NCBI GenBank assembly: GCA_029786595.1
Contig: JAFLXO010000006.1
Location: forward strand, 1 to 48,001
Direction of reading: 5' to 3'
DNA: 48,001 bases
From: Nitrososphaerota archaeon
Lineage (GTDB): Archaea; Thermoproteota; Nitrososphaeria; Conexivisphaerales; UBA164
Under the pieces are notes generated by a model that saw only the letters and a list, made by a program, of their open reading frames with translations, was not told where the DNA came from and made no database searches. Each line of letters starts with the position of its first letter. The stretch's first letter is position 1. Of the stretch, positions 22,190-22,858 are shown piece after piece. A program made the translations under genes and the position numbers.

Positions 22190-22600
22190 TTAGAGGTCCG
22201 CCAGATACTTGATTCGCCACCAACCCCCTTGATGGACTATCTCCATAAGATAATATGTTATGCCCTTAACTTCGGTCTTATATCCATGTCTTTCTTGTTT
22301 ATATGGTTCACCATATCCGGTCGCATTAAGCGTATTGCCGTTTATGCGGACAGAAAACCTGCTAATGGCAAATTCATCTATAGTGAACTTCTGAAGTACG
22401 GCTTCCAACCATCTATAGAGGAGGTTATATTCATCCGATCCGCTTACGCTGAAATGCACTTCAACCTTCGAGTGCACAGCATGTACATCATAGATTAAGT
22501 CTAGAAGAGAGAGTGCCGCGCTTTCAAAACATGTATTTTTTGACCTTCCATATGCTTCGATATATGCGTCACTTACATGTTCCAACCTTTTATAGCCCAT
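22190..22600 (-). CDS. Archease (RtcB cofactor family)
   Basis: LEHVSDAYIEAYG, EFAISRFSVRINGNTLNATGYGEPY, KGITYYLMEI motifs. Confidence 0.85.
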   Translation of the reverse strand: MGYKRLEHVSDAYIEAYGRSKNTCFESAALSLLDLIYDVHAVHSKVEVHFSVSGSDEYNLLYRWLEAVLQKFTIDEFAISRFSVRINGNTLNATGYGEPYKQERHGYKTEVKGITYYLMEIVHQGGWWRIKYLADL

Positions 22601-22770
22601 GGGGCTTGGCTAGCACGACCTTCCGTAAAACCTTTCGCCGATGGACATCCAGCCTCCCAAAAATCAAAATTCTTATATTGGGGCGCGATACAAGGGAGCA
22701 AGGTGGCATGGGTGCTAGAAAATGTCAATATCATTGTCTATAATCTGGCGCCAGAACATTGAATGACAAT

Positions 22771-22858
22771 GCCGCGGTAGCTCAGCCTGACCACTGGGGC
22801 TAAGGAGAGCATCCGGCTGAAGACCGGAGTGTCGCCGGTTCAAACCCGGCCCGCGGCA
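22771..22858 (+). tRNA. tRNA-Phe(GAA) with a 14-nt intron in the D-loop (22790-22803)
   Basis: Acceptor GCCGCGG/CCGCGGC, anticodon stem TCCGG/CCGGA with loop CTGAAGA, T-arm GCCGG-TTCAAAC-CCGGC, discriminator A, no encoded CCA. The D-loop is 23 nt and becomes AGCCTGGGA after intron removal. Confidence 0.9.

Follow-up and report, generated by a model that had tools for sequence, protein, structure and literature searches.

A tRNA-Phe gene with a probable short intron between positions 18 and 19 of its D-loop in Conexivisphaerales

The window, a stretch of 48,001 nt, contains a tRNA-Phe(GAA) gene. We conclude, with a probability of about 95%, that it is functional, is probably present in a single copy, and carries a short non-canonical archaeal intron at position 18/19 that is excised by way of a bulge-helix-bulge (BHB) motif. 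Once this intron is recognised, the genome regains what is apparently its sole tRNA-Phe, a gene overlooked by ARAGORN and misplaced by the Rfam model. The occurrence of an intron at one position of one tRNA in archaea as distant as Conexivisphaerales and Woesearchaeota also bears on how introns are gained and on what exons contribute to the splice motif.

The tRNA-Phe gene and its insert

The gene reads GCCGCGG TA GCTC [AGCCTGACCACTGGGGCTAAGGA] GAGC A TCCGG CTGAAGA CCGGA GTGTC GCCGG TTCAAAC CCGGC CCGCGGC A. All four stems are perfect, including the acceptor (GCCGCGG/CCGCGGC), the D-stem (GCTC/GAGC), the anticodon arm (TCCGG-CTGAAGA-CCGGA) and the T arm (GCCGG-TTCAAAC-CCGGC). The sole deviation from a perfect cloverleaf is the unspliced D-loop of 23 nt, AGCCTGACCACTGGGGCTAAGGA. 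If the mature D-loop is taken to be AGCCTGGGA, a single pair of cut sites is possible; in standard numbering this loop runs A14 G15 C16 C17 U17a G18, then G19 G20 A21, with the insert between G18 and G19. An initial annotation had proposed this 14-nt intron and its excision by cuts leaving AGCCTGGGA. Its coordinates and letters proved correct, and the exact ends hold, given that intronless relatives have the same D-loop, the splicing itself being predicted. Upstream of the gene, TCTATAAT is a possible TATA box.

Table 1. Positions of the tRNA-Phe gene, its predicted splice motif and neighbouring features in the window
Feature	Position	Strand	Description	Basis
tRNA-Phe(GAA) gene	22771..22858	+	88-nt precursor, 74-nt mature form	sequence; Rfam RF00005; ARAGORN after splicing
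3' terminus of tRNA-Phe gene		+	discriminator A; CCA not encoded	sequence
5' exon	22771..22789	+	5' strands of acceptor and D-stem; D-loop AGCCTG to G18	comparison with intronless relatives
Intron ACCACTGGGGCTAA	22790..22803	+	14 nt, between G18 and G19	intronless orthologues lack it; the order has homologues of 13, 14 and 16 nt
3' exon	22804..22858	+	from G19; holds anticodon GAA	sequence; ARAGORN after splicing
Central BHB helix, 5' (exon) strand AGCC	22784..22787	+	4 bp; pairs with 22798-22801	GGTT in L008 still pairs
Central BHB helix, 3' (intron) strand GGCT	22798..22801	+		sequence; covariation-supported register
5' bulge TGA	22788..22790	+	predicted cut 22789/22790	BHB register backed by covariation
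3' bulge AAG	22802..22804	+	predicted cut 22803/22804	sequence; covariation-supported register
Inner helix CC/GG, loop ACT	22791..22797	+	22791-22792 with 22796-22797	covariation, 72 distinct introns
Possible archaeal TATA box TCTATAAT	22737..22744	+	some 27-34 nt before the tRNA gene	by eye; identical in two congeners
Archease gene	22190..22600	-	divergent neighbour of the tRNA, 170 nt away	Pfam PF01951, E 5.8e-33

We compared the behaviour of tRNA finders on the precursor and the spliced form. ARAGORN called no tRNA in the unspliced window, and after deletion of 22790-22803 it reported a normal 74-nt tRNA-Phe(gaa); the deletion thus yields a standard tRNA with the D-loop of the intronless orthologues. 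The Rfam tRNA model RF00005 matched 22790-22858 with 36 bits, a start that falls inside the intron, and mispaired the insert.

A homologue search in 41 genomes recovered the identical 88 nt (100%) from the two congeners. Four genomes of the family have 87-nt versions of the gene, and one genome from another family of the order has a version of 90 nt. The corresponding introns are ACCACTGGGGCTAA in the genus (14 nt), ACGAAAGGGCTAA and ACCAAGGGGCTAA in the family (13 nt) and ACCAATAAGGGGTTAA in the other family (16 nt). The five further genomes of the order, with 13- or 16-nt introns, keep the geometry of the splice motif and have intact exons, and the intronless relatives (L012, L014, L015, L017, L018 and L020) have exactly AGCCTGGGA as their D-loop. 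Across the order the intron loop is variable and the adjoining exons are nearly constant. The intron 3' strand GGCT has become GGTT in one case (L008), with pairing to AGCC retained, and the inner helix is reduced to 1 bp in the relatives with ACGAAAGGGCTAA. By sequence comparison the insert is beyond chance, being identical in two congeners, recurring with different loops in five more genomes from the order and showing the inner-helix covariation described below. Inserts elsewhere in tRNA-Phe, in the region of the D-stem and anticodon stem, were seen in other relatives, at L022 (G016) and L016 (G039); there are several insert positions in tRNA-Phe of the class.

A second tRNA-Phe gene, which the initial annotation had raised as a challenge to its own reading, was not detected in this 83%-complete genome, and neither congener has a further tRNA-Phe-like match beside the intron-bearing gene.

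Geometry of the predicted splice motif

The precursor contains two 3-nt bulges on opposite strands, TGA and AAG, that flank the 4-bp helix AGCC/GGCT. These elements, as well as the pairs CTC/GAG and CC/GG, are all present where the annotation had placed them. Its description of the motif as a perfect BHB has to be qualified, however, since the outer helix (CTC, 22781-22783, with GAG, 22805-22807) forms only in a register slipped by two nucleotides from the real D-stem, whose 3' strand is 22807-22810, and the inner helix, well supported across homologues, has just 2 bp here. Among folds predicted for the isolated precursor RNA, the best one (-41.9 kcal/mol) leaves the true D-stem intact; its central helix has the 4 bp and one additional G-U pair, and its 3' bulge measures 5 nt. 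The slipped-register BHB (-36.1 kcal/mol) lies 5.8 kcal/mol higher. Given that the naked RNA favours the real D-stem and that the inner helix is so short, both a strict BHB reached by slippage and a relaxed motif are possible.

We carried out a covariation test on 72 distinct introns, pairing intron position 2 onward with position -7 backward, a region in which the scan pattern described below leaves the inner helix unconstrained. A full 3-bp inner helix in the exact BHB register was present in 53 of the 72 introns, compared with 9.4 +/- 2.4 when partners were shuffled (maximum 18 in 2000 shuffles), whereas the six other 3-bp registers tested were paired in 1-7 of 72. The inner helix is built from 24 different pair combinations among these introns. 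This covariation speaks for a bulge-helix-bulge and for the two splice positions that it implies.

The pairs of the central helix are not independent evidence in the GTDB scan, because the search pattern required them. When that requirement was dropped, a search of 400 genomes from the phylum returned four true D-loop inserts, each of which retains 3-4 of the 4 pairs. As a test of whether slippage of the D-stem underlies the limitation to tRNA-Phe, non-slipping D-arms were searched for such introns, and none appeared in 200 genomes. Only about 108 such D-arms, and hence about 3 introns, would be expected there, on the basis of 33 such D-arms in 61 genomes and the tRNA-Phe rate of 4 introns versus roughly 140-150 intronless genes.

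Splicing machinery and alternative explanations

Two genuine splicing endonuclease homologues are encoded in the genome. The nearest match of L001 (178 aa), the alpha subunit, is the crenarchaeal catalytic chain 3p1z_B (E 2e-43); the protein retains Tyr118/His126/Lys157 together with the Crenarchaea-type loop lysine, Lys37 (opposite residue 44 of the chain in the alignment; counted by hand). L002 (180 aa), the beta subunit, aligns to 1a79 and is without the His. The endonuclease type, which the initial annotation had suggested checking, is thus represented by genes for a catalytic alpha and a non-catalytic beta subunit, and at the gene level this matches an alpha2beta2 endonuclease in composition. 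Two papers associate this enzyme type with non-canonical introns (PMC4090602, PMC12397907). The genome also encodes an RtcB-type ligase (PF01139, E 2.1e-170). Archease is an activator of the RtcB tRNA-splicing ligase, and its gene lies beside the intron-bearing tRNA within this genus only; as the adjacency is so confined, we claim no functional coupling between the two.

From the gene, its insert, the homologues, the covariation and the enzyme genes, we infer the cuts, the slipped outer helix, the ligation and the mature tRNA as follows. In the precursor, AGCC of the D-loop would pair with GGCT near the 3' end of the intron to form the 4-bp BHB helix, and CTC of the D-stem would re-pair two nucleotides out of register to form the outer helix. 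The two-subunit endonuclease would then cut each 3-nt bulge after its second nucleotide, and RtcB, aided by archease, would ligate the exons into the normal D-loop. The insert is almost certainly excised by the ordinary archaeal tRNA-splicing enzyme.

Were the insert instead retained, the mature tRNA-Phe would have a 23-nt D-loop in which G18 and G19, needed for the contact between D-loop and T-loop, stand 14 nt apart. The intronless orthologues, the BHB covariation and the genome's complete set of splicing genes also argue against retention, which we consider highly improbable. We attach equally little weight to the idea that this is a decayed copy and that a working gene lies in sequence absent from the assembly. 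The 83% completeness leaves room for such a gene, but every stem is perfect, the identical gene is the sole tRNA-Phe-like match in two congeners, and the intron occurs with intact exons in five more genomes.

A further alternative leaves the intron as it is and concerns the form in which it is cut, namely a relaxed motif (hBH or bulge-helix-loop) with the real D-stem paired, a 5-nt 3' bulge AAGGA and the inner helix unformed. Because of the energy difference between the slipped BHB and the best fold, the enzyme may act on this form; the lowest-energy precursor fold retains the real D-stem, the inner helix is minimal in the genus and its relatives, and relaxed motifs are described as accepted by heterotetrameric endonucleases in the same papers (PMC4090602, PMC12397907). 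Against this, conservation of the inner helix over the 72 introns is strong, and its register is exactly that of the BHB. Cutting of the relaxed form is a tentative proposal to which we give somewhat less than even odds, and excision through the BHB is the reading that we prefer.

Distribution across archaea and relation to known introns

We scanned one genome per GTDB species with the pattern TAGCTCAGCCYG-N(5-35)-GGYTNN-GGAGAG, which allows introns of 11 to 41 nt. This revealed 82 matching stretches, of which 80 are tRNA-Phe on inspection. CTGAAG, the start of the tRNA-Phe anticodon loop, was found within 150 nt in 78 of the 82 (background 8.5%), directly in place in 49 cases and after a second insert in 29. 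The bacterial matches in Nocardia and Gracilimonas (L070, L105) were dismissed as chance. The remaining two of the 80 are the tRNA-Phe genes at L076 and L100, with one intron at 18/19 and the other splitting the GAA anticodon (CTGA...AAGA).

Intron lengths at 18/19 of tRNA-Phe range from 13 to 41 nt across archaea, and the hosts named in record titles include Woesearchaeota, Bathyarchaeota, Nitrososphaerales/Thaumarchaeota, Nanoarchaeota, Micrarchaeota and Diapherotrites. A contig labelled Deltaproteobacteria (L078), probably mis-binned, likewise carries a tRNA-Phe of archaeal appearance with an intron in its D-loop. In this phylum the D-arm TAGCTCAGCCTGGGAGAGC nearly always belongs to tRNA-Phe; the search pattern itself thus accounts for part of the apparent restriction to this tRNA. 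We put at about even the chance that 18/19 of tRNA-Phe is a deep, repeatedly used archaeal intron site, from Nitrososphaeria and Bathyarchaeia to DPANN. Such a site could be ancestral, or could reflect many gains because the conserved D-arm, GCTCAGCCTG followed after the insertion point by GGAGAGC, can slip into a ready-made BHB.

Two other tRNA genes of the genome contain inserts. The D-stem of tRNA-Lys(UUU) (L146, G000:C19:11541-11731) is interrupted at about 22/23 by a 17-nt intron, ACTTGTAAAAGACCTAA, which forms a BHB (AGGT/ACCT, inner CTT/AAG), and the anticodon stem of tRNA-Ile(GAU) (L153, G000:C31:5484-5687) by one of 29 nt at about 30/31, both positions having been assigned by hand. 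ARAGORN miscalled the unspliced tRNA-Ile(GAU) as Ala; with the introns deleted it recognised both tRNAs, so that the genome has at least two further non-canonical introns. These are removable like the one in tRNA-Phe, but lie at other sites.

PMC4090602 reports archaeal tRNA introns that range from 11 to 129 nt, most medians falling within 12-25 nt; 14 nt is therefore an ordinary length, and not the very short one that the initial annotation had made of it. The non-canonical D-arm positions given there include 20/21 and 22/23, and 18/19 is absent from this list, which is non-exhaustive and ends in 'etc.' (PMC4090602). D-arm tRNA introns have been reported in Caldiarchaeum (PMC3293823), and our literature search on tRNA introns of Conexivisphaera or BHB tRNA introns of Woesearchaeota found nothing relevant.

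The tRNA-Phe 18/19 intron belongs to a known kind, the archaeal BHB tRNA introns. With the non-canonical examples from Thermoproteales, Thaumarchaeota and Caldiarchaeum it shares a short insert outside 37/38, a BHB formed between exon and intron, and a two-subunit endonuclease; it differs from them in its host order, Conexivisphaerales, in its site and in its recurrence in one isoacceptor. With the canonical 37/38 introns it has the motif, enzyme and ligase in common, although it is located in the D-loop and its predicted outer helix is a slipped D-stem, whereas theirs is the unchanged anticodon stem. The notable part is the recurrence at one site in tRNA-Phe.
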